This document shows, piece after piece, positions 43,636 through 54,794 of a DNA stretch of 64,000 nt (position 1 is its first letter; every line of letters starts with the position of its first letter). The translations under genes and the position numbers were made by a program. Under the pieces are notes generated by a model. It was given only the letters and a program-made list of their open reading frames with translations, made no database searches and was not told where the DNA came from. This stretch comes from Pedobacter sp. BS3 (lineage in GTDB: Bacteria; Bacteroidota; Bacteroidia; Sphingobacteriales; Sphingobacteriaceae). The DNA lies in the NCBI RefSeq assembly GCF_008274585.1, contig NZ_VTRT01000010.1, positions 1 to 64,000 on the forward strand, in the 5' to 3' direction.

Positions 43636-43808
43636 GCGCCAAGCTCCGGCTTGGTGATGTTACCTAAAAAGCCTCCGGGCTTTGTTGGACATTATACCGT
43701 AAGCAGCGTTTTGAACATTTCGTGGTAGAAAGTTCTTAAAACTTTCCTGCTATGTTAAGGTTCAGGTTATTCCTGTGTTCAATCCTGTGCTGAAACTTAA
43801 GGCAGGTC
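43636..43808. repeat. Direct repeat, copy 1 (flanks the VOC gene)
   Basis: A segment of about 170 bases, matching the copy at 44372-44520 in the same orientation. Shared landmarks in order: GCGC-AAGCTCCGGC, CTCCGGGCTTT, GTAGAAAGTTCTTAAA, CTTTCCTGCTAT, GTTATTCCTG, CTGAAACTTAAG-CAGGT. The end contains an inverted pair (TTAAGTT / AACTTAA type), clearer in copy 2. This explains most of the 328-base gap downstream of the VOC gene. Confidence 0.65.
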
Positions 43809-43830: not shown

Positions 43831-44199
43831 CTATTCAGTTAATGAAAGAACGTTTCCATCAGGGTCTTTGAACCAGGCAACCTTTGAGCCATTGGGTGAG
43901 ATCCAGATACCTAAGCTGTCCTGTTCAAAGAAGTCATAACGTTCGCAAAAGATGTTTTTGTCGTTGAGTTGCTTTATGACAGAAACAATGTTATTAACGT
44001 TCCAACCCAGGATGGTGAATGGATGTGGCTTGAACTCCCGGACAGTGGTAATACGCAGCAAAGTGCCGTTTGCATCAAATTCTAAAGCAAAATTGTCTTC
44101 CGACAATAATTTTAGCCCCAGAATATCTTTATAAAATAGTTTGGCTTCGTTTGGCTTTACCGTTGGTACAAACGCTTTAAGTTTTTGGTTGGCAAGCAT
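43831..44199 (-). CDS. VOC-family (glyoxalase-like) protein
   Basis: A 122-residue protein with the paired beta-alpha-beta-beta-beta modules of the vicinal oxygen chelate superfamily: KAFVPTVKPNEAKLFYKDIL, LGLKLLSEDNFALEF, then WISPNGSKVAWFKDPDGNVLSL, where the final FKDPDGNVLSL is the usual C-terminal signature. Single VOC domains of this size dimerise; the role may be glyoxalase, antibiotic binding or lyase. The metal ligands are not clearly complete. It is flanked on both sides by copies of a direct repeat. Confidence 0.85.
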   Translation of the reverse strand: MLANQKLKAFVPTVKPNEAKLFYKDILGLKLLSEDNFALEFDANGTLLRITTVREFKPHPFTILGWNVNNIVSVIKQLNDKNIFCERYDFFEQDSLGIWISPNGSKVAWFKDPDGNVLSLTE

Positions 44200-44679
44200 A
44201 ATTTAGTGTTAAGTAAAAAGTCAAAATCCAAAAGTTGAATGTAGTGAAAGCCTGACCTTTCGGGATAAAAATCGGTAATTCGTTTGAAATTAGGAATATA
44301 TATATAGATTTTGGGGTCAGTTTAGAATATTTATTTTAGTTTATTTTCTGTCAGTTCAGTTTTGTGTTGGGAGCGCTAAGGCTCCGGCTGAAACTCTCCG
44401 GGCTTTATACCACCGCGTTCTGAACACTTTGGGTATAGGAAATTCTTAAAGCTTCCCTGCTATTGTAAGGCTTAAGTTATTCCTGCGCTCAATTCCTCTG
44501 CTGAAACTTAAGCCAGGTGGGGGAGAAATTCGCTTTATTCGATTTAAAGTTGCTTTGGGAAGGCTTTAAACGGATAGAGGAAGAAAATTAAATTCATTGG
44601 TTTTGAGGACTGTCGTTTGGCAGTCCTTTTAAATTATCAAGCTGCCAAGTCAGAATGATCGCCCAGAAACGTGTCTTAT
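44200..44679. repeat. Gap with direct repeat copy 2 and a small hairpin
   Basis: Positions 44372-44520 are the second copy of the repeat at 43636-43808; here GGCTTAAGTT (44469-44478) pairs with AACTTAAGCC (44505-44514). At 44606-44627 AGGACTG/CAGTCCT forms a 7-bp hairpin followed by TTTTAAATT, a possible plus-strand terminator. GCTGCCAA at about 44641 may be the worn left edge of the adjoining cassette array. No gene seen. Confidence 0.6.
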
Positions 44680-45471
44680 TTATATTACAGCATAGCGGCA
44701 GCTTTTCATTTTATCCTTTAGCGAAACTCTATATTTAAGCTTTAGGATTTTAGCAATCTTCTTGTCTTGAAATGTCCTAATACTATTCATTCTGTTTTTA
44801 AGAAAGTAGTCATAATAATTTTTGTCTCTTATTGCTTTTGCAATTTGCTTAATAGACGGGTATATATTATCATCATTTGAGTTTAGCTTAATTGCATTAG
44901 ATGTTGCAACCAGGCAATCAAATTCCCTTAGCTGGTTCTTAAAAAGGTAATTTAGGTCAACGGTAAGTTGCCAATTATTATCAATTGATTTTAATTCATC
45001 TATTTCGCCAAATTTCTCAACGTCAGGTTGTCTTTGATTTCCAGTTAAATTGTCTTTTGTCGCTTTTACGAGATTATTCCATATCATAGCTATTTCATCC
45101 TTTGCGGTTTTGTTAATAAATGGATTGATTGAAATACAAACGGTTCCCCAACTTTTACAAATTCTGTCTTTAGAAATCCCCTCTGCTTGTGAAAGCAATC
45201 TCATTTGTCTAACAAATTCCTCTGTTGAGGTAATGTTTTGTTTGTAAGGAAGCACATATCCAAGCCCAAGACTTTCTTCCTTATTGATGCTATTGGAAAA
45301 AACCATTGAAAATGTTCCATTTCTGCTCTCCTCTGAAAGTCTGCCGTATCTTATTGGCAAAGGCACTTTTAATTTTTTGTCGAGCGCTAATTCTGATTGC
45401 CATTTCTTTCTAATTTCTGTCGGGTCCCAAAGCAAGGAACCAATTGTAATTGCTCCAACTTTTATATTCAT
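44680..45471 (-). CDS. Cargo protein of unknown function, gamma-glutamylcyclotransferase-like start
   Basis: A 263-residue cytoplasmic protein. The start AITIGSLLWDPTEIRKKW, followed by PIRYGRLSEESRNGTFSMVFS, is reminiscent of gamma-glutamylcyclotransferase-like proteins (GSL motif near the N-terminus), but no catalytic residue can be assigned. The rest is Asn/Lys-rich, A+T-rich and unlike the codon usage of genes outside the island. It is the left-most gene of the cassette-like array; an attC-like site begins about 30 bases upstream of its start codon. Confidence 0.7.
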   Translation of the reverse strand: MNIKVGAITIGSLLWDPTEIRKKWQSELALDKKLKVPLPIRYGRLSEESRNGTFSMVFSNSINKEESLGLGYVLPYKQNITSTEEFVRQMRLLSQAEGISKDRICKSWGTVCISINPFINKTAKDEIAMIWNNLVKATKDNLTGNQRQPDVEKFGEIDELKSIDNNWQLTVDLNYLFKNQLREFDCLVATSNAIKLNSNDDNIYPSIKQIAKAIRDKNYYDYFLKNRMNSIRTFQDKKIAKILKLKYRVSLKDKMKSCRYAVI

Positions 45472-45500
45472 ATTTATGCTATGATGTGTCTGGTGAAATT

Positions 45501-45636
45501 ACCGCTAACGAGCCGCGTATTGGCGATGGGCGGGATTTTTAGCACTAACCCTGATACGAAGAACGAAAGTCGAATTTTGCACTTTCGTTGATACGAAGCC
45601 GTTCAGCCCGCCTATTGCCAATACGATGTTGGCGGT
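45501..45636. repeat. attC-like site A (136 bp imperfect inverted repeat)
   Basis: Left arm 45501-45534 (ACCGCTAACGAGCCGCGTAT then TGGCGATGGGCGGG) pairs with right arm 45606-45636 (GCCCGCCTATTGCCAATAC then GATGTTGGCGGT) with small bulges, including a three-base bulge near the end. An inner 9-bp pair AACGAAAGT/ACTTTCGTT (45562-45570, 45581-45589) extends the fold, so the whole site can form one long hairpin. The ends GCTAAC and GTTGGC echo integron attC core sites. It lies between the unknown gene and the first DHFR-like gene. Confidence 0.75.
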
Positions 45637-45658
45637 TCGTTGTTTTTATCTTTTTGTT

Positions 45659-46249
45659 TCATTTTTTGTAGTGATTGACGATGATACCACACTTAAACGG
45701 TGTTGAGTTTACTGTTTTCAGGTTTGTCTGCTTTTGGAAAATAGGTAAACCTTGTCCTAATGCTACTGGGTTTGTTATCAAATGAAATTCGTCTATGAGG
45801 TCTGCGTTGATAAGCGAAGAAACAAGCGTTGCACCACCATAAACGATAATGTCTCCATTGTCTTGGTTTTTCAGTTTCGTGATTTCGTCAGCTAAATTGC
45901 CTTTTAGAATGGATACGTTTTCCCAACCGCCCGGGATTTCGGTTTCCGTTGTCAAAGTTCTGCTTGCTACAAACTTATTGGTGTTTACAATATGGTTGGC
46001 AAATTCAAATCTTGTGTCTGTCGGGTCTTGTGTTACTTGTTTCCAATGTGCGTTAAAACCTTCTTGTGCCATTTGACTGCTTATCAAAATGCTGTTAGCG
46101 GATTTGTTTAGATTTGTATGATAACTTTGCAGGTCTTTATCCCAATTCCAATTTGGTCCCCAATTCCAAATCATCCAATCTGTACCACCATTTTCGTCAG
46201 CGATATATCCGTCAATACTAATTTGTGTTTCAAGAATTAATTTGTTCAT
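45659..46249 (-). CDS. Dihydrofolate reductase-like (RibD C-terminal) protein 1
   Basis: A 196-residue protein of the DHFR/RibD-C superfamily. MNKLILETQISIDGYIADEN opens the fold; later GDIIVYGGATLVSSLINADL carries the cofactor GG motif, and LITNPVALGQGLPIF is the conserved C-terminal strand-loop. These stand-alone family members reduce pteridine-, flavin- or antibiotic-like substrates; true DHFR activity is unproven. I start at MNKLILE (46249). The 15-codon open extension upstream is the conserved leader of the cassette. Related to, but clearly diverged from, the next gene. Confidence 0.88.
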   Translation of the reverse strand: MNKLILETQISIDGYIADENGGTDWMIWNWGPNWNWDKDLQSYHTNLNKSANSILISSQMAQEGFNAHWKQVTQDPTDTRFEFANHIVNTNKFVASRTLTTETEIPGGWENVSILKGNLADEITKLKNQDNGDIIVYGGATLVSSLINADLIDEFHLITNPVALGQGLPIFQKQTNLKTVNSTPFKCGIIVNHYKK

Positions 46250-46261
46250 ATTGTTATCTTG

Positions 46262-46310
46262 TCTGTTACTGTCGTCCGTTACTATGACTGCCAATGATGT
46301 TGGTAGTTCG
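46262..46310. repeat. attC-like site B, collapsed form
   Basis: Between the two DHFR-like genes is only ACTGCCAA-TGATG-TTGGTAGT (46287-46307; one mismatch), preceded by GTCGTCCGTTACTATG and followed by TCGTTG. These flanks match those of the full-length sites, so it looks like a site in which the outer ends were joined and the 100-170 base centre lost. Confidence 0.65.
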
Positions 46311-46314
46311 TTGA

Positions 46315-46887
46315 TTATTGTCTGTCCACAATGTAATTCAGTTCTGTTACTCCGTTATTAAATTGTCGTGTATTTACTAAGTTTAGCGAAGTTTTGTCTT
46401 TTATATCCACAAACAATGGAATGCCTTGTCCGAGAATAATTGGATTGACAAATAGCCAATAGCCGTCAATTAAATTCTGTTGCATAAGCGAATGTGTGGC
46501 TGTCGGGCTACCAAAAAGCAAGATTTCTTTACCGTCCTGCTGTTTTATTTCATTTATTTGGTCTGCAAGATTGTCGTTAATGATTGTCGTGTTATGCAAT
46601 TTCGCTTCATTAAGTGTTTTTGACAAAACAACTTTGTGAGCTTTTTTATACCATTTTGAATGTTCAATGTCGTGTTTGGTTGCTGTTGGTTTGTCGCCTG
46701 CTGTCAGCCAATAACCTTGCATCATTTCATAAGTTTTTCGTCCGTATAATGCAGTTTCCGTTTTGCTTATACGATTGCCGACATAAGTAAAAATTTCTTC
46801 GTCTGCCTTTGCCCAATTGAGTTCTCCGCTTAGTCCTGCTACAAAACCGTCAAGCGATATGTGCATAAATGAAATTATTTTTCTCAT
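46315..46887 (-). CDS. Dihydrofolate reductase-like (RibD C-terminal) protein 2
   Basis: A 190-residue member of the same superfamily: MRKIISFMHISLDGFVAGL at the N-terminus, ALYGRKTYEMMQGYW, KEILLFGSPTATHSLMQQNL in the cofactor region and LFVNPIILGQGIPLF at the end. The pairing of GRKTYEMM and NPIILGQG is typical of dihydrofolate reductase family proteins of unknown substrate. Start codon at MRKIISF. It is adjacent to its paralogue, separated by a collapsed attC-like site, and preceded by the full site C. Confidence 0.88.
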   Translation of the reverse strand: MRKIISFMHISLDGFVAGLSGELNWAKADEEIFTYVGNRISKTETALYGRKTYEMMQGYWLTAGDKPTATKHDIEHSKWYKKAHKVVLSKTLNEAKLHNTTIINDNLADQINEIKQQDGKEILLFGSPTATHSLMQQNLIDGYWLFVNPIILGQGIPLFVDIKDKTSLNLVNTRQFNNGVTELNYIVDRQ

Positions 46888-46951
46888 ACTTTATATTTCT
46901 GTTTATAATGTGTCCTTTGTTAATTGTTTTGTTGTGTCGTCCGTTACAATG

Positions 46952-47157
46952 ACCGCCAACGTTTTGGGGCTTGGCGGTCGGTCGGGCATTTGAAAAACGT
47001 CAGATGACAACTGAAGCCAAATAAAGTTACAAAAGTTGAAGTTAAGAACTAAAAGTTGAACAGTGTTCCGTCAGCCGGAACAAAAGCTGATTAGCGAACT
47101 GAAGTTGAGGAGATATTCTTGTCCCCCCCGACTGCCGCCAAACCGTTTGTTGGCGGT
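46952..47157. repeat. attC-like site C (206 bp)
   Basis: Left arm 46952-46986 (ACCGCCAACGTTTTGGGGC, then TTGGCGGTCGGTCGGG) and right arm 47127-47157 (CCCGACTGCCGCCAAACCG, then TTTGTTGGCGGT) are imperfectly complementary. The centre contains AAAGTTACAAAA, TGTTCCGTCAGCCGGAAC and GCTGATTAGCGAAC, the last two shared with site D. The left flank GTCGTCCGTTACAATG and right flank TCGTTTTTG match the other sites. Confidence 0.78.
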
Positions 47158-47181
47158 TCGTTTTTGTTCTACTTGTCTATG

Positions 47182-48135
47182 TCAAATTTTAATAACAATG
47201 GTTTTGTTTAAATTCCAGGCATTGGATATTTCTGTTAAAGGAAAAATTTCTGTGTCTATGAAAAGTTTGCCCGAAGCTGCGTATTGAAAAATTTCGGGAA
47301 GTATGTTTTGCATATAGTCCGTTATTACCTGCTGCTTAAAACTTCCGATTCCTGAACCTAAAAGAACAATATCTCTACTTCGCAATGTGTCTGATGTCAA
47401 TGAAGAAATTGTGTGCCCTGCCATTTCGCCAACCGTAACAATTTTGGTTGTTGTTTGTGAGGTCTGTGTCAGCAAGGATTGCAAAAGCAATTCCATTGGT
47501 TTTCCCCACAAATAATCAATAACAATATCAAAAGGATAGGTAGCGTATGCTTTTTTAAAATCGTTGACAATATCATTTTCGGGTTGGTCTAATGAAATGG
47601 TTATGTCTGCACCAAGTTCTTTTAATTTTTCAAGAACTTTTGTATTGCGACCTGTTGCAATAATAGTTGCAGCGTTATGGTATTTTGCCATTTGAACCGC
47701 TATTGTTCCCGTTGAACCTGTTGCTCCGTTTATTAAAACTATATCGCCTTTTTTTATTTGTGCTTTGGTTCGCAAAGCAATGTCAGAGCCAACCAAAAAA
47801 TTAGGTAATGCTGCTGCTGTATTGTCATCAAGTCCTTCGGGAAGAATTATCCATCTGTTTTTTTGCACAATAGCCTTTTCTGCCATCATTCCCGTTACAC
47901 CCATTGCGTAAATTCTTTGTCCGTTTTCTAACATTGCAACACCGTCCATTCCCACAATAATGGGCAATGATGAATACTTTGTGTAGTGTTTTCCCGCTGC
48001 TTTCAGTAAATCTAATTGTTTAATAGATGATGCTTTTACACTCACTAAAACTTGTTGTTCATTTTCAACAACAGGTTCGGGAAAATCAACACAAACAGGT
48101 GTCGTCCCAATTTCTTTTAAGATTGCTGCTTTCAT
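47182..48135 (-). CDS. Zinc-independent alcohol dehydrogenase / quinone oxidoreductase family protein
   Basis: A 317-residue medium-chain dehydrogenase/reductase. N-terminal GroES-like part (ILKEIGTTPVCVDFPEP, IVGMDGVAML) and a Rossmann part (VLINGATGSTGTIAVQMAKY, IIATGRNTKVLEKLKELGAD). Zinc-binding cysteines are absent, as in quinone oxidoreductases. It would use NADPH to reduce a quinone or enone; substrate unknown. It lies 25 bases downstream of the AraC-type regulator gene on the same strand, so that protein probably regulates it; the two form a two-gene cassette. Confidence 0.88.
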   Translation of the reverse strand: MKAAILKEIGTTPVCVDFPEPVVENEQQVLVSVKASSIKQLDLLKAAGKHYTKYSSLPIIVGMDGVAMLENGQRIYAMGVTGMMAEKAIVQKNRWIILPEGLDDNTAAALPNFLVGSDIALRTKAQIKKGDIVLINGATGSTGTIAVQMAKYHNAATIIATGRNTKVLEKLKELGADITISLDQPENDIVNDFKKAYATYPFDIVIDYLWGKPMELLLQSLLTQTSQTTTKIVTVGEMAGHTISSLTSDTLRSRDIVLLGSGIGSFKQQVITDYMQNILPEIFQYAASGKLFIDTEIFPLTEISNAWNLNKTIVIKI

Positions 48136-48160
48136 TGCTATTGAAATTTATGCAGCAAAA

Positions 48161-48916
48161 TTATTTGGGGTCAAGCACTGAAAATTGTATAAATCGCTCG
48201 TTTTGATTTTGTTTAAGTTCCTTTGGTAAAGCACTTGAAAGTTTTTTCACTTCTTTGATGAAATGTGATTGGTCGGTAAAGTTTTGTTGTGGAAATAATT
48301 TACCTTCTTTGATATGCTGAAATGAAGCACGGAAGCGGATTATATTGCAATATGCTTTTAATGAAAGCCCGAATTGTTGATTGAAATAACGATTGATTTG
48401 TTGCCTGCTCCAAAACACTTTTTCAGAAAGTTCTTTTACGGAAATTGCTCCGTTTGTAGCATAAATCAACTCAAACAATTTTTGTTTTCGGTTGTCAATA
48501 TCTTTCGGTAAAAGCGACTGAATTTTTTGTGAAGCCTTTTCGCAAAACGCTTCAAAGTCATTCAAATCATCTGCGTAGAAATTCCAAAAATCATTTGGCA
48601 AAATTTTCTTGCTGTCCAATATATCGGCAATGGAATAGCGCAAAATATACTCTGTTGCAAGTGGTTTAAAACTAATTGCACACGATATAGAATTTGGATA
48701 AGAAGGATTTAGTTTTGGCTTTGTTTCCAAACCAATTAATGTGATATGGAATGGCTTTGTTTCAGGCTTAGACAAGACCAAATCAATTTTACCGTCAGGA
48801 ACAACAACTTTTTCTGCGTTGTCGTCCGATTGATGTTTCAGAAACCAAAAACTTTCTACGAAATCGGCAAGTGATTTGTCGGGTTCAATGATTTTGTATG
48901 TAAAGTCATTTTGCAT
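48161..48916 (-). CDS. AraC-family transcriptional regulator
   Basis: A 251-residue regulator. The N-terminal part (FTYKIIEPDKSLADFVESFW, VVPDGKIDLVLS) matches the DUF6597-type ligand-binding region seen in AraC proteins; the C-terminal part has two HTH motifs (SVKELSEKVFWSRQQINRYF and LSLKAYCNIIRFRASFQHI, ending NFTDQSHFIKEVK). Start at MQNDFTY (48916); the frame stays open through the attC-like site D but that stretch is not protein-like. It is followed at 25 bases by the dehydrogenase gene, its probable target. Confidence 0.88.
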   Translation of the reverse strand: MQNDFTYKIIEPDKSLADFVESFWFLKHQSDDNAEKVVVPDGKIDLVLSKPETKPFHITLIGLETKPKLNPSYPNSISCAISFKPLATEYILRYSIADILDSKKILPNDFWNFYADDLNDFEAFCEKASQKIQSLLPKDIDNRKQKLFELIYATNGAISVKELSEKVFWSRQQINRYFNQQFGLSLKAYCNIIRFRASFQHIKEGKLFPQQNFTDQSHFIKEVKKLSSALPKELKQNQNERFIQFSVLDPK

Positions 48917-48952
48917 TGTCGTCTGTCCATTTGCACGGTGTCGCTTAAAATG

Positions 48953-49154
48953 ACCGCCAACGTTAAAGCATTGGCGATGTGGCGGTATTCTGTGTTCCGT
49001 CTGCCGGAGCCGCTGCTGAATAAAGATACAAAGGCTCATTGTTTATTCCGTTGCTCGGTGTTATTCGTCGGCTGAAACCGAGTTTGATTAGCGAACAAAA
49101 AGCTGAGAATATGTTCATCTCCCCGCCATATTGCCAATGCACTGTTAGCAGGCG
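48953..49154. repeat. attC-like site D (202 bp)
   Basis: Left arm 48953-48985 (ACCGCCAACGTTAAAGCATT, then GGCGATGTGGCGG) pairs with right arm 49121-49154 (CCCCGCCATATTGCCAATGC, then ACTGTTAGCAGGC). Centre: TGTTCCGTCTGCCGGAG, AAAGATACAAAGG and GATTAGCGAAC, homologous to site C. Left flank CGGTGTCGCTTAAAATG. The right arm runs into the end of the next gene and supplies its stop codon. Confidence 0.78.
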
Positions 49155-49972
49155 TTGTTTTGTTTGAAGAAATCTGCTCTTTCTGTCAAACGCTCAACAT
49201 AAAGTTCGTTGTCCAATTTTAAATGATCAAACACAAGTATTTCAAGTACCTCATTAAGATACAATAATAAAAAAGGCAATCTTCTATACAAGTAATTCCA
49301 TTGCGTTAAAATGCTGTCTTTTGTGCTGAATACAAAATTGATGTTTTGTATTTCTGTCTTATTGTTTTTGTTTCTTGTCGTCGATGGATGAAGAGCTTTG
49401 TTTGACATATTTACTAAACTGTCTGACAAAGCTGGATTAAATATGAAATCATATACATCTGAAGCTTTTATTGATTTGCTTAAAAGAAGGTTTTCTGTAG
49501 CATTTAATAGCTCAATAATATCCTCTTGAGAAATTCCCGTTGTGTCAAAGCTGTCTTCTTTATTAAACTTTTCCAAAAAGTCGCTTGTAAGATACAACCT
49601 TAAAATAACTAGGAGATTGTAAACGAAAGGCTTTCTAATAAGAGAAAATGTCACCGTCAGTCGCTGTTGTAAAGAAGCAAAAAGTGCAATCTGTAAAAAC
49701 TGGCAAGAGTCAGCGATAACTGCATTTAGAATATGACTTGTAAGTATTTCATCATGTTTGTCAGATTTATCAGCTCTGAGTAAGTAGTCCAATATATGTT
49801 CGCCGTTGTTTAAATCTATTTCTTTGTCGAACTGAACTGTCTGGACTCTTAACCCTTTAAATGTTTCTGAAGTAACAAAATCTTCAATTTGATAAAGCAA
49901 AAACTCGCAACTTTTATGTTGTCGATGGAACTCCTTAGGGAGATGAAGAAAGTCATATCGTTCATTTCTCAT
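49145..49972 (-). CDS. Cargo protein of unknown function (mostly helical)
   Basis: A 275-residue protein, no family recognised. It is Leu/Asn/Lys-rich and predicted mostly alpha-helical, with LIRKPFVYNLLVILRLYLT and LPFLLLYLNEVLEILVF as hydrophobic stretches, but no signal peptide. Start at MRNERYD (49972); upstream open codons are the conserved leader. The last residues (FKQNNAC, then stop) are encoded by the outer end of site D: AACGCCTGCTAAC on the coding strand gives N-A-C-stop. This is the same arrangement as in integron cassettes, whose end site often completes the reading frame. Confidence 0.7.
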   Translation of the reverse strand: MRNERYDFLHLPKEFHRQHKSCEFLLYQIEDFVTSETFKGLRVQTVQFDKEIDLNNGEHILDYLLRADKSDKHDEILTSHILNAVIADSCQFLQIALFASLQQRLTVTFSLIRKPFVYNLLVILRLYLTSDFLEKFNKEDSFDTTGISQEDIIELLNATENLLLSKSIKASDVYDFIFNPALSDSLVNMSNKALHPSTTRNKNNKTEIQNINFVFSTKDSILTQWNYLYRRLPFLLLYLNEVLEILVFDHLKLDNELYVERLTERADFFKQNNAC

Positions 49973-50278
49973 AATGTTGGAAGGGTCGCACTTACAATGC
50001 CTGCTAACTCTCAAATATACGCCACTTTTTAATATTGATAAAAATATTTATCCGTAACATCTTTTTTCGAAAGGGACTGATACTGTTAGCTTTGGGGGAA
50101 GATTAATTTGTCGAATTCTGTATAAAAATTATTCAAAATAATTTAGTTTATTTGCGTGTTAATATACAAAATACGACATTTATATATGGCAACGGTTCGG
50201 GGCTTTGCGTTCGGGCGGGATTAAATGCACGAATGTTCAACCTTGCACCAAAGTTACAAAAAAGTACGAATGTTTAAT
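49973..50278. other. Cassette boundary gap with a lone half-site and the left arm of site E
   Basis: TGCCTGCTAAC (49998-50008) matches the outer end of site D's right arm, so it is the partner end of the unknown-protein cassette. About 180 bases of A+T-rich sequence follow before the left arm of site E starts at 50188. No gene seen; the 180 bases may be an insertion or a worn-out cassette. Confidence 0.5.
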
Positions 50279-50322
50279 TTAGCACGTCTGGCCGCCTGAC
50301 GCCAAACCCTTGTTACCTGCTG
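50188..50322. repeat. attC-like site E (135 bp)
   Basis: Left arm 50188-50219 (GGCAACGGTTCGGGGCTTTG, then CGTTCGGGCGGG) pairs with right arm 50290-50322 (GGCCGCCTGACGCCAAACCC, then TTGTTACCTGCTG). The centre has CCAAAGTTACAAAA, shared with site C, and two ACGAATGTT words (50230, 50267). The sigma-factor gene ends inside it: the last 14 codons and the stop lie in the centre and right arm. Confidence 0.75.
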
Positions 50323-51565
50323 TTTTTTTCTCGGTCAGTCGTTCGATTTCTTTTGTCAGCGTCTGTTTTTCTGTCTTGGATTTTGTCAGCCCGATTGCTT
50401 GTTTGTAATGGTAAATTGCTTTGTCAAGGTCTGTGTCAGCATACAAGTAACCTAACAATTCGTGATAATAATTGCTGTCTGTCAATTTTAGTTTTTCGGC
50501 TTCGGAAATTGCTTTGTCGTGTCCGTAAACTTTGGCAAACGCAAAAGTCCTGTTCAACGCTGTTATGGGCGAATATTCAATAAGAATAAGTTGGTTGTAA
50601 AGTTGTAAAATGTGTTGCCATTTGTTTTGGTCTGTCGGTGTGGTATGCCAATAAGCAATACCTGCTTCTAAATGATATTTTGAAACTTCGTTTCCATTAC
50701 AAGCATTTACCAAATAGTAATTCCCTTTTTCAATCAGTGTTTTGTCCCACAAACTTTTGTCTTGTTCGTCAAACAAAACGGCTTCGCCTTTGTCGTTTGT
50801 TCTCGCTTCAAGTCGTGAACTTTGAAAGCACATTAAAGCAAGTAATGCGTTTGTCTGCGGTGTGTTTGTATAGTCGTTGTCTGTTAAGATTAGCGTTAAT
50901 CTTACGGCTTCCGAACAAAAGTCTTTTCGGATTTGCTGATTGTTTGTTTTGGAAAAATAACCTTCGTTAAACAGCAAATACAATGTTTTCAAAACGGTGT
51001 CTAACCGTGATTTAATTTCCGTTTCGCTTAATGTTTTGATTTGAAAATTGTCGTTGCGAAGATTTGTTCTGGCTCGTAACAACCGCTTTTTTATCGTTTC
51101 TGTTTTTGTCAAAAAAGCATTGGCGATTTCTTCCACGCTGAAACCGCAGAGGATTTGAAGTGCCAAACAAATTTGACTTTCGGTCGAATTTGTCGGGTTA
51201 CAAACCGCAAAAATCATTGCTAACTGACTGTCCGAAATGGTTTGATTACTAAACTCAAAATTTTGCTCTGTTTCAAGTTCGGTTGGTTTTATCGCTTCTT
51301 TGATTTGCGTTTCAAAAACGGCAATGTGTTTAAAATAATCTTTTGTTTTGTTTTTGGCAACTGCATAAAGCCAAGCTGTCGGGTTTTCGGGTATTCCGTT
51401 AATTGCCCAATGTTCCGATGCTTTTAGAAATGTGTCGCTGGCAATGTCTTCGGCAATTTCAATATGCTTCAAGCCAAAATGACGGCATAAAACAGCCGTC
51501 ATTTTCGCATATTCCTGTCGGAATAGGTGAGGTAAAAGTTCTTTATGTGATTTTTTGCTAATCAC
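50279..51565 (-). CDS. ECF sigma factor with C-terminal TPR-like domain (ECF42-type)
   Basis: A 428-residue RNA polymerase sigma factor. Region 2 (FRQEYAKMTAVLCRHFGLKH, DIASDTFLKASEHW) and region 4 (QICLALQILCGFSVEEIANA, then RLLRARTNLR) occupy the first ~180 residues; the rest is a large TPR-like domain (NRTFAFAKVYGHDKAISEAE, ELLGYLYADTDLDKAIYHYK). This layout and the adjacent YCII gene match the ECF42 group, which in other bacteria partners DGPF/YCII proteins. There is no anti-sigma gene; the C-terminal extension is thought to regulate activity. The last residues (KKTAGNKGLASGGQTC) come from attC-like site E. Confidence 0.9.
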   Translation of the reverse strand: MISKKSHKELLPHLFRQEYAKMTAVLCRHFGLKHIEIAEDIASDTFLKASEHWAINGIPENPTAWLYAVAKNKTKDYFKHIAVFETQIKEAIKPTELETEQNFEFSNQTISDSQLAMIFAVCNPTNSTESQICLALQILCGFSVEEIANAFLTKTETIKKRLLRARTNLRNDNFQIKTLSETEIKSRLDTVLKTLYLLFNEGYFSKTNNQQIRKDFCSEAVRLTLILTDNDYTNTPQTNALLALMCFQSSRLEARTNDKGEAVLFDEQDKSLWDKTLIEKGNYYLVNACNGNEVSKYHLEAGIAYWHTTPTDQNKWQHILQLYNQLILIEYSPITALNRTFAFAKVYGHDKAISEAEKLKLTDSNYYHELLGYLYADTDLDKAIYHYKQAIGLTKSKTEKQTLTKEIERLTEKKTAGNKGLASGGQTC

Positions 51566-51902
51566 GTTTTAGAACTTCTCTCACTTCAATGTTTCCACCA
51601 ACTTGGTCAAATATCGGATTGCCTTTTGCCATTTCTACGGCTTCATCAATGGTGTCAGCTTGTACAACAATGTAACCGCTAATAAATTCTTTGATTTCGG
51701 TGTAAGGTCCGTCCGTTACTACATTGTTAGGCTTTACTGTTTTCGCACTTCCCGGAATTGGTAAAAGTGTGTTTCCTTTGTCCACCAACTTGTTTTGTGA
51801 AGCAATACCTGCTAACCAATTCATACGTTCCTGCATTTGTTCAGGCGATGGTTTGAAGTCAGCAATGTCTTTCAGTCTGAAAATTAACGCAAATTCTTTC
51901 AT
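51558..51902 (-). CDS. YCII-related (DGPF-type) protein
   Basis: A 114-residue alpha-beta protein of the YCII/DGPF family, small dimeric ferredoxin-like folds. Key stretches: MKEFALIFRLKDIADFKPSP, QERMNWLAGIASQNKLVD, VVTDGPYTEIKEFISGYIVV (the DGPF-type motif reads DGPYTE), and AVEMAKGNPIFDQVGGNIEV. It starts just upstream of the sigma-factor gene and overlaps its start by 8 bases, so the two are translationally coupled. Family function is unknown, though genes of this type are usual ECF42 targets. The gene is the 5' end of the last cassette. Confidence 0.9.
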   Translation of the reverse strand: MKEFALIFRLKDIADFKPSPEQMQERMNWLAGIASQNKLVDKGNTLLPIPGSAKTVKPNNVVTDGPYTEIKEFISGYIVVQADTIDEAVEMAKGNPIFDQVGGNIEVREVLKRD

Positions 51903-52523
51903 TTTTTTAAAATTTTAATTGTTCGACTTAATGACGATTGACTTTTCAAGTCGGGGACAAATTTCGTGATTTTTTTTGTCGGACGGTGTCGGTTTAAAAT
52001 AGCAGGTAACTCATTTATATGCCTAATTTTATCAGACATATCCACCATATTTGGTTGGCTTTGTCTGATAGAGCTGCCTTTTTAGTTGCCTAAATATAGG
52101 CAAAATACAAAGCTTAGAAAGCGTGTTTGGATTTGCGTCATTGCAGGTGTACTGCCCGAACCGAATTAAACCCGATTGAAATGGATACCGGCCTGTGTGT
52201 AAGGCTTGCAGGCGTATGAATGCAAAGCGGGGCTACCGGTACCGAAGCAATACCGGCACTGCTTTGCAAAAAATATATTATCCGGTTAAGAACTCGTACT
52301 GTGAGTAAACCCGGGTCGGCATTTTGACACCGAACCCCCGATTACTCGGGAGAATTTCGCTGTGCTCAACTTTATACTTTATACTTTTGACTTTTAACTT
52401 GATAAAGTGGTATTTAGATTTTTTCCAAACAAGAAATTGACTTGTTATTAACGTGCAGCATCTTTATTTTTTTGTAAATTCGCCGCAAAATATTCACGTA
52501 ACCAACATTTAAATAATAGTATC
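51903..52523. other. Right edge of the cassette island and a hairpin-rich gap
   Basis: CGGTGTCGGTTTAAAATAGC then AGGTAAC (about 51985-52010) is the right-hand half-site that pairs with site E's TTACCTGCTG end; it marks the island's right border. After it are two hairpins: ATCAGACA/TGTCTGAT (52031-52038, 52062-52069) and TGCAAAGC/GCTTTGCA (52221-52228, 52261-52268) with CCGGTA/TACCGG inside. CCCCGATTACTCGGGAG (about 52336) resembles the palindrome at 17234, and a CTTTTGACTTTTAACTTG run is at about 52380. No gene seen. Confidence 0.55.
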
Positions 52524-54794
52524 ATGGCGTTTGATATAGATATGATAAAAAAGGTTTACAGCAACCTTGAAAGTCGTGTTGAAGCTGCTCGTAAAGTTGT
52601 AAATAAGCCGCTAACCTTAACGGAGAAGATTTTATACAGTCATCTATGGCATGGTGAGGCACATGAAGCTTACGGGCGTGGCGTATCTTATGTTGATTTT
52701 GCCCCCGACCGTGTGGCGATGCAGGACGCGACAGCGCAAATGGCCCTGTTACAGTTTATGCAGGCCGGTCGCCCGAAAGTGGCCGTTCCGTCTACCGTGC
52801 ATTGCGACCACCTGATTCAGGCTAAGGTAGGCGCTGCCGAGGATCTGGCGACAGCCAACTCGACCAACAAGGAGGTTTATGATTTCCTTTCGTCTGTATC
52901 AAATAAATATGGTATCGGTTTCTGGAAGCCCGGGGCGGGTATTATTCACCAGGTGGTATTGGAAAATTATGCTTTCCCTGGTGGAATGATGATTGGAACC
53001 GACTCGCACACGCCTAATGCCGGTGGTTTAGGTATGATTGCTATTGGGGTGGGCGGTGCTGATGCCTGCGACGTGATGGCCGGTTTTGCCTGGGAGCTTA
53101 AATTCCCGAAACTGATTGGTATTAAGCTTACCGGTAAATTATCCGGATGGACTTCGGCCAAGGACGTTATACTGAAAGTTGCCGGTATCCTTACCGTAAA
53201 AGGTGGTACCGGATGTATTGTGGAATATTTTGGCGATGGCGCCCGCTCGTTATCGGCTACCGGAAAAGGTACTATCTGTAATATGGGCGCTGAGATTGGT
53301 GCAACCACCTCTATTTTTGGTTACGACGAAAAATCTGAAGAATATTTACGCGGAACCGAACGCGGCGAAATTGCCGACCTGGCCAACGCCATCAAACAGC
53401 ATTTAACCGGCGATGATGAGGTGTATGCTAATCCTGAGGCTTATTTTGACCAGGTGATAGAAATTAACCTTTCTGAGCTTGAACCGCACATTAACGGTCC
53501 GTTTACGCCAGACCTGGCATGGCCGATTTCTAAATTTGCCGATGCTGTTAAAGAGCATAACTGGCCTGCAAAACTGGAAGTTGGTTTGATTGGCTCGTGT
53601 ACTAATTCATCTTACGAAGATATTACCCGTGCTGCATCGCTGGCACAACAAGCTGTAGATAAGCACTTAGTAGCAAAATCAGAATACACTGTTACTCCCG
53701 GTTCTGAGCTGGTACGCTACACCGTTGAGCGGGATGGTTATTTAGATACGTTTGAAAAAATTGGCGGAACAGTGTTGGCTAACGCCTGTGGCCCTTGTAT
53801 TGGTCAATGGGCACGTCATGGCGCTGACATGCAGGAGAAAAATTCCATCATTACTTCGTTTAACCGGAACTTCGCTAAACGTAATGATGGTAACCCCAAT
53901 ACACATGCTTTTGTAGCGTCGCCGGAGATTGTTACAGCACTGGCTATTGCCGGAAGCTTAACATTCAACCCTCTTACTGATACCCTGGTAAATGAAGATG
54001 GTCAGGAGGTGAAGCTGGATGAGCCGCAAGGCTTGCAAATGCCGCTTAAAGGGTATGCGGTTGAAGATGCCGGATACCAGGCTCCTGCAGCAGACGGTAG
54101 CCAGGTGCAGGTAATTGTAAGTCCGACTTCAAGCCGTTTACAACTGCTTGAGCCATTCCCTGCATGGGAAGGAGCCGACCTTACCGGCTTAAAACTGTTA
54201 ATTAAAGCTAAAGGTAAATGTACCACCGACCATATTTCTATGGCCGGTCCGTGGTTGAAATTCCGCGGACATCTGGACAACATTTCCAATAACATGCTGA
54301 TTGGCGCTATTAACTATTTCAACGATACTGCCGACCATGTTAAAAACCAGCTAACCGGCGAATATGGCCCTGTACCGGCTACGCAGCGTGCTTATAAGGC
54401 TGCCGGTATCGGAACCGTTGTTGTGGGCGATGAAAACTATGGCGAAGGTTCATCTCGTGAACATGCGGCCATGGAGCCTCGGCATCTGGGAGTACGTGTA
54501 ATATTAGTTAAATCATTTGCCCGTATTCACGAAACCAACCTGAAAAAACAAGGTATGCTGGCAATAACATTTTCTGATTCTAACGATTACAATAAGGTTC
54601 AGGAAGATGATACTATTGACATTGTTGGATTAACTGATTTTGCCCCGGGCAAACAGCTAAAAGTGGTATTGCATCATGCCGATGGTTCGGAAGAATCATT
54701 CCTGGTAAACCATACCTATAATGAGCAGCAAATAGAGTGGTTTAAAGCTGGTGCGGCGCTTAATATTATCCGTATGAAGCAACAGCAAGCTTAA
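52524..54794 (+). CDS. acn: Aconitate hydratase
   Basis: A 756-residue cytoplasmic TCA-cycle enzyme interconverting citrate and isocitrate. The three [4Fe-4S] cysteines are visible: C359 (LIGSCTNSS), C422 and C425 ([10 protein letters not shown]). [24 protein letters not shown] and the swivel-domain [18 protein letters not shown] also match. Length and motif spacing agree with the mitochondrial-type aconitases found in Bacteroidetes and not with the longer AcnA (about 890). The island ends just upstream; a terminator follows. Confidence 0.97.

Follow-up and report, generated by a model that had tools for sequence, protein, structure and literature searches.

In the integrons described from chromosomes and in those of class 1, a tyrosine recombinase gene lies beside the insertion point, the array of cassettes runs one way, and each cassette carries a folded two-arm site, attC, with a breakpoint at G|TT. 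For recombination, canonical attC sites are folded from the bottom strand. The circular form of an integron cassette brings its two ends together, and these ends are accordingly complementary. With present tools hardly any integrons are detected in Bacteroidota, and the IntegronFinder 2.0 survey names one complete integron in Bacteroidetes proper (PMC9024848). In a study of Riemerella anatipestifer transformed with aph(3')-IVb, 27 bp, the gene and 140 bp were integrated without homology, and the 140 bp downstream of the gene fold like attC (PMC13148043, published in 2026). Here we analyze positions 1 to 64,000 of contig NZ_VTRT01000010.1 of Pedobacter sp. BS3 (the window), in which a run of genes on one strand is divided by sites of an attC-like kind.

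Between positions 44680 and 51902, the window holds eight genes, all on the minus strand and grouped into six units, exactly as an earlier reading of the letters alone (the original prediction) had it. The same reading had called these genes A+T-rich, and their G+C content is indeed 33-39%, compared with 44% in the flanks. Between the units lie four full sites, one collapsed site and two further junctions; sites A, C, D and E set apart the six co-oriented units, five of which have matching ends. We conclude, with a probability of about 0.88, that the cassettes in the window form an array belonging to an integron-like system peculiar to Bacteroidota, with its own sites and its own tyrosine recombinase family. 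The earlier proposal of a cassette array related in principle to integrons is supported by the G|TT breakpoints, the self-complementary cassette ends, the covariation of the site arms, the accessory-gene context and the absence of the GTTRRRY core. The sites and the start junction of the window are listed below; scores are from R1, a covariance model built from 41 aligned sites of this genome, its relatives and plasmids, among which sites A, C, D and E themselves are included.

45500-45638, minus strand: site A, attC-like (102.1 bits, E 1e-21)
46286-46311, minus strand: site B, collapsed to R'', 4 nt and R' with the hairpin gone; read directly and not matched by R1
46951-47159, minus strand: site C, attC-like, long class (57.0 bits, E 3e-11)
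48952-49154, minus strand: site D, attC-like, long class (67.1 bits, E 1e-13)
50184-50322, minus strand: site E, attC-like (99.3 bits, E 6e-21)
50006-50022, minus strand: attI-like start GCGTATATTTGAGAG|TT, an exact match at the start of cassette 2, containing the promoter-type motif TAnnTTTG

The four full sites that had been proposed are thus real, with slightly corrected coordinates, and the collapse of site B is confirmed by direct reading. Site A shares 91% identity with its counterpart in the aadS cassette of plasmids from Bacteroides and Myroides. A palindrome finder that relied on AAC...GTT and arm complementarity alone was dropped as noisy, as it gave 11 matches in the window against 2-9 in shuffles; site detection then used motif anchoring followed by the covariance model.

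Read in the direction of the genes, a site consists of NNNYAACA, 5 nt, TTGGC or TTTGC, a 4-nt island, an arm of about 6 nt, the centre, the opposing arm, a second 4-nt island, CGCC or CGC, AA, 8-10 nt and CGTTR NNN G. Site length is 139-141 nt in most cases and about 200 nt in a second class. The core GTTRGCR of the original prediction did not prove general: 114 distinct sites give CGTTR-NNN-G, in which NNN is free and GTTR is the fixed part. The absence of the usual core was borne out, with R' fitting GTTRRRY in 7 of the 114 sites and R'' fitting RYYYAAC in 15. In the 41-site alignment, the 25 named pairs were standard in 80.6% of cells, compared with 34-43% when one side was slid by 1-3 columns, and their covariation score was 0.372, compared with 0.07-0.11 when slid. 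The L arms pair in 93-99% of cells, and most varying positions are changed on both sides; the two-arm site is conserved more in structure than in sequence. The R boxes are paired within their own site in 67%, which is informative because R'' pairs with the other end of its own cassette. Of 80 non-redundant sites, 64 fold more stably as the bottom strand, opposite to the genes (p 6e-8), and the 4x4 island, partly open on the gene strand, can be closed by G-T pairs on the opposite strand (3.4 of 4 positions versus 2.0). This folding bias agrees with recombination at canonical attC sites, where the folded bottom strand is the substrate.

R1 matched 33 sites in this genome. When eight candidates per genome were scored with it, sites were found in 119 of 296 Bacteroidota genomes (about 40%) and in 68 of 140 genera; many of the matching sites lay outside the training set. 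A search of this kind had been suggested as a check. The sites stand next to unrelated accessory genes in a consistent orientation. Rfam gave no attC match in window 44000-53000 and no family at the sites, with five sub-threshold matches. The class of about 200 nt (for example L040 6066-6266, L044 2425-2625 and L081 9446-9643) has an extra central insert resembling a terminator hairpin with a T-run, followed by a TAnnTTTG-like motif; this insert is perhaps a terminator plus a promoter.

The units delimited by these sites are as follows, with the complementarity of the two ends of each cassette given out of nine positions.

50193-52009, minus strand: cassette 1, a YCII-domain gene (51558-51902) and an extracytoplasmic function (ECF)-type sigma factor gene with DUF6596 (50279-51565), Pfam matches PF03795, PF20239 and PF04542; terminal site E; ends 9/9 (leading edge GTTACCTGC, R'' GCAGGTAAC)
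50008-50192, minus strand: gene-less stretch of 185 bp between site E and cassette 2, read directly; it begins with TTGCC after the G of site E and finishes in the attI-like junction, with no adjoining recombinase gene
48961-50007, minus strand: cassette 2, one gene (49145-49972, 275 aa); ends 9/9
46960-48960, minus strand: cassette 3, an AraC-type regulator (48161-48919) and a zinc-type oxidoreductase (47182-48135), Pfam matches PF20240 and PF00107; ends 9/9
46295-46959, minus strand: cassette 4, a RibD_C or dihydrofolate-reductase-like gene (46315-46887, PF01872); ends 7/9
45509-46294, minus strand: cassette 5, a second RibD_C-like gene (45659-46249, PF01872); ends 8/9
44680-45508, minus strand: cassette 6, incomplete, one gene (44680-45471, 263 aa) with its leading edge after site A; no terminal site, R1 being without a match downstream

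No Pfam, NCBIfam or PADLOC family matched the 263-aa and 275-aa proteins of cassettes 6 and 2. The half-sites that had been noted at 49998 and about 52002 are real junctions, and they turned out to be cassette leading edges, namely the attI-like junction at 50006-50008 and the start of the first cassette at 52001-52010. The latter is preceded by GAG|TT and has no recognisable recombinase gene. In a relative of cassette 1 from another genome (G003:C10, L012), homology is confined to the stretch that begins close to the leading edge and runs into the site; another site precedes this relative.

Comparison between species indicates that such units behave as mobile cassettes with precise G|TT breakpoints. 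The aadS cassette has identical DNA between the ends G|TTGTACGAC (leading; in the comparison of flanks, G|TTGTACGACATAG) and CGGCACG|TT, and its flanks differ between Bacteroides, Myroides, Riemerella and Empedobacter plasmids and a related genome (G016). The cassette breakpoints in these different species lie precisely at G|TT. Similarly, tet(X2) and tet(X3) have a common leading edge, TTATGTGCCATTTTTGAATGACAAT, behind different flanks that end in G, and both the aadS and the tet(X) cassettes occur in several settings with G|TT ends. The matched ends are a general property of the arrays. In 73 neighbouring site pairs, R'' agreed with the leading edge of its own cassette at a mean of 4.71 of 6 variable positions, compared with 2.38 of 6 for R' of the same site and with 2.35±0.13 of 6 in re-paired controls (maximum 2.90 in 2000). 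The match covered 5 or 6 positions in 55 of the 73 arrayed cassettes.

The integration experiment in Riemerella agrees with these boundaries. On plasmid pRCAD0416RA-1, the site after the APH(3') gene (L218 17355-17494, 96 bits) is a member of the family; we took this gene to be aph(3')-IVb from the statement that RCAD0416 carries a plasmid-borne aph(3')-IVb (PMC13148043). The cassette predicted there comprises 28 bp, the gene and 139 bp, which is the same total of 167 bp as the unit that was integrated, with a shift of one base. A relE gene and a helix-turn-helix gene form another cassette on this plasmid, of the same kind as the markers at the recipient locus in that study.

The attI-like start of the window has counterparts elsewhere. 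The 17-mer GCGTATATTTGAGAG, with at most one mismatch, occurs in 12 places in 100 related genomes, compared with 4 for a reversed control, and five of its seven exact copies lie beside a recombinase of 357-362 aa. Every copy diverges after G|TT, and most run into a cassette with a site. There are two attI types, with divergence directly after G|TT in three and four recombinase loci. In the first type, near-identical recombinase loci of three genomes (including G016 and G075) share their DNA up to AAACAGATG|TT and then have different first cassettes, which in G016 is aadS; the attI segment of this G000/G016-type recombinase is GGTTGGTTAAGCG...AAACAGATG|TT. In the second, belonging to the longer recombinase type (357-360 aa), ATTGCGTATATTTGAGAG|TT is common to four loci. 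The attI motif contains TAnnTTTG, and in the copies linked to a recombinase TTG lies about 19 nt upstream. Since TTG with TAnnTTTG is the usual form of a Bacteroidetes promoter, the attI-like motif may act like the cassette promoter Pc.

There is no tyrosine recombinase (TR) gene within the window, and to this extent the original prediction of an array without an integrase stands. It does not hold for the genome, where the search that had been proposed found a TR beside an array, nor for dozens of loci in other genomes at which a TR flanks an array:

C21:431994-432851, minus strand: 279-aa-type TR of this genome, divergent to an array whose sites lie on the plus strand from 434862 to 459508

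The integrase had escaped notice because the window holds only the attI-like start at 50006-50022. For a broader view, 80 loci were picked by TR sequence alone; the named genomes belong to Flavobacterium, Chryseobacterium, Pedobacter, Algoriphagus, Parapedobacter and others, and single metagenome-assembled genomes of Ignavibacteria and Spirochaetes are included. Sites were present in 40 of these loci, and sites near the TR pointed away from it by 99 to 2. The site density on the 3' side of the TR was 0.22 per kb, compared with about 0.007 genome-wide. Across the 296 genomes, TR and sites co-occur with an odds ratio of 8.4 (p 2e-15, not corrected for shared ancestry). These data tie the TR to the sites by association, which is not proof of activity.

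The catalytic residues of the TRs (R, K, HxxR, H and Y) do not vary, and the protein ends in SPLDxL or a close variant of it, as IntI does. The array-flanking TRs are without the IntI-specific insert near patch III: the stretch HQRCLSNG...CDWQW of the IntI of G028 is absent, and TIGR02249 matches the TRs in two pieces (about 2-179 and 238-315) at 192-223 bits, below its cut-off of 265. Two members exceed the cut-off of NF040815 ("tyrosine recombinase/integron integrase"). In the tree, IntI (100/99) and the Xer pair stand apart from the TRs, among which those linked to IS91 form a separate clade. The nearest structures to the predicted fold are XerA (Z 23.7), IntI4 (Z 21.0) and XerH, a comparison that alone does not separate these. 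The TR gene can face either way, and the protein often has an extra N-terminal stretch, which in the longer TRs gives a weak DUF5710 match at most. In two of these (L079 10594-11667 and L086 7697-8764), an N-terminal W-S-...-W-x-x-P pattern resembles the start of a prophage helicase on contig C12 of this genome.

Taken together, comparison of sequences shows the site family, the precise G|TT breakpoints, the matched cassette ends and the attI-like junctions; it also shows that the sites are associated with the TR and oriented with respect to it. A mechanism of the following kind would accommodate them. A cassette would consist of one or a few genes followed by one imperfect palindrome (R''-L''-centre-L'-R'). 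The TR encoded beside the start site would cut at G|TT and join a circular cassette, its site folded as a single strand, to the attI-like start or to another site; the start, adjoining the TR gene, would carry the promoter-type motif. In this scheme we infer the role of the TR as the cutting enzyme, that of the folded bottom strand as its substrate and the promotion of transcription by the attI motif. We read the window as the start of an array whose recombinase gene was lost or never travelled with it. The TR of this genome, of the 279-aa type, differs in type from the TRs tied to the attI-like 17-mer of the window; the array could be served in trans by a TR of that 279-aa type elsewhere in the genome, or be frozen.

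Because the TR is without the IntI insert and GTTRRRY fits so few of the sites, the system is strictly not a canonical integron; it works like one. It shares with integrons the TR gene beside the insertion point, one-way arrays, a folded two-arm site per cassette with a G|TT breakpoint, ends complementary within the cassette and a better-folding bottom strand. It differs in the separate clade of its TR, which often has the N-terminal stretch and faces either way, in the core CGTTR-NNN-G, in sites that are mostly 139-141 or about 200 nt long with a 4x4 island, and in that some cassettes are multi-gene. A literature search covering open PMC papers found a sole description of such a system, one site of the family with one gene: the attC-like 3' untranslated region of 140 bp in Riemerella, which names no family, attI, recombinase or link to tet(X) and aadS (PMC13148043). 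The earlier suggestion of an undescribed system therefore stands provisionally for the system as a whole, whereas the attC-like fold of one site had already been reported.

A first alternative is that the sites are classical attC, of unusual sequence, and the window an ordinary remnant of an IntI integron of the kind called CALIN (a cluster of attC sites without an integrase). The architecture, the G|TT breakpoint and the matched ends would be the same, the window array has no adjacent integrase, and a related genome, G028, holds IntI genes above the cut-off. We nevertheless regard this as very unlikely: the sites depart from the canonical attC core in both R' and R'', an attI-like start is present, R1 finds no site on a plasmid whose class 1 integron has the cassettes dfrA12 and aadA2, IntI exceeds the cut-off in only 1 of 100 relatives while the sites are common, and the array-flanking TRs group apart from IntI and are without its insert. 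Even less likely is that elements pairing an IS91-type transposase with a TR (ISWz1-like) move the genes, the palindromes being element ends or targets. Such pairs do sit in R'' of sites on Myroides plasmids and elsewhere, occur in the same resistance regions and encode a related recombinase; in the Myroides aadS cassette, R'' is interrupted by an IS91 element. However, they interrupt R'' (GTCGTACAA|...TTTAGTT|CAAC) in the manner of a passenger, their TR falls in a clade apart, and cassette ends match without them. Most sites and arrays have no IS91 nearby, including those of the window, among whose units a Pfam scan found no IS91 gene.

Small modules with inverted ends in a window without a TR might also be shuffled by host XerC/XerD or by general recombination, as in pdif modules. 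We find this hardly credible, as the sites are associated with one TR family and oriented with respect to it, and an attI-like junction lies beside the TR gene; moreover, pdif modules have dif-like sites of 28 bp bound by XerC/XerD, which do not need the conserved folded arms of these palindromes of 139-200 nt. Finally, the long site class does seem to have a terminator-like hairpin in its centre, but we give next to no credence to ordinary intergenic palindromes or terminators between unrelated genes, given the precise cassette breakpoints across species, the matched ends and a length that agrees with the experimentally integrated unit (PMC13148043).

Several observations weigh against an integron-like system served by this TR family. 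No excision, circle or integration was observed in this analysis. Single-strand folding, one of the checks that had been proposed, favoured the bottom strand across the site set and left site E, by energy alone, no better than shuffles on either strand. Among the 119 site-bearing genomes, 50 have no TR of this family above the cut-off, and for these one has to assume action in trans, loss of the TR or a TR that was missed. Conversely, 40 of the 80 TR loci lack a site within reach (in 29 of the 80, the contig ends less than 1.6 kb from the TR), and the gut Bacteroidales TRs L207, L211 and L212 have no sites; part of the TR family may therefore do something else. The link between TR and sites across genomes could partly reflect shared ancestry, and a prophage-like array on contig C12 has cassettes inverted relative to the genes.

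The integron-like system also bears resistance genes, tet(X) and aadS among them, in bacteria from hospitals and farms. In Acinetobacter, the "xerD" of the xerD-tet(X3)-res-ISCR2 plasmids is 48.7% identical to the TR family over 82%, and the start of tet(X3), ...CACTTG|TTATGTGCC, equals the leading edge of the tet(X2) cassette (L236 5028-7049 on p80-1-2-tetX3; L237 on pHH1107); this unit differs in that the site after tet(X3) is truncated (16.6 bits). By these three features, tet(X3) appears to have moved out of Bacteroidota along with its recombinase. We consider it reasonably likely that Bacteroidota possess a second integron lineage, spread across the phylum, whose integrase does without the IntI insert and in many cases has an additional N-terminal domain, and that this lineage is the unrecognised platform on which the resistance regions with tet(X), aadS, ere(D), estT and OXA-347 were assembled and from which tet(X3) reached Acinetobacter along with the integrase of the lineage ("xerD"). 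If the recombinase were confirmed, it would explain how tet(X) and other last-line resistance genes move in bacteria of the gut, of farms and of the environment and would account for the unexplained natural-transformation result in Riemerella. As a related system that seems to do without the insert, it offers a test of the purpose of this part of IntI, and a single covariance model suffices to annotate such arrays in existing genomes.

Further observations concern mobile forms and cargo. The elements with an IS91-type transposase and a TR that are inserted in R'' (L041 3911-5847, L042, L081 and L082) appear as passengers that target the site. A plasmid of Chryseobacterium sp. SNU WT5 (L219 8770-18756) carries a mobile form, a TR with a four-site array within which an IS110 element and a group II intron also lie. 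The C21 arrays of this genome contain defence-like genes (L077 11031-12872; L127 4480-9687 and 11203-17229; L129 10393-13108), including a PD-T4-6-like kinase, a large protein matching the PDC-S37 and MkoA models, type II methyltransferases and a whole type I restriction-modification operon within one cassette of 6.6 kb. The prophage-like array on C12 (L131 8932-12153; C12:96931-100152) has seven sites in 3 kb, opposite to the genes, with mostly matched cassette ends. A gene of 563 aa beside it, whose N terminus first suggested a recombinase, reads by eye as a SNF2/SMARCAL1-like prophage helicase.

Outside the array in the window, positions 52164-52238 give a sub-threshold match to the Flavo-1 small RNA (28.8 bits; gathering threshold 42). 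To the left of the array, a glyoxalase-like gene is flanked by two imperfect copies of an intergenic repeat of about 80 nt, at 43726-43807 and 44436-44518.

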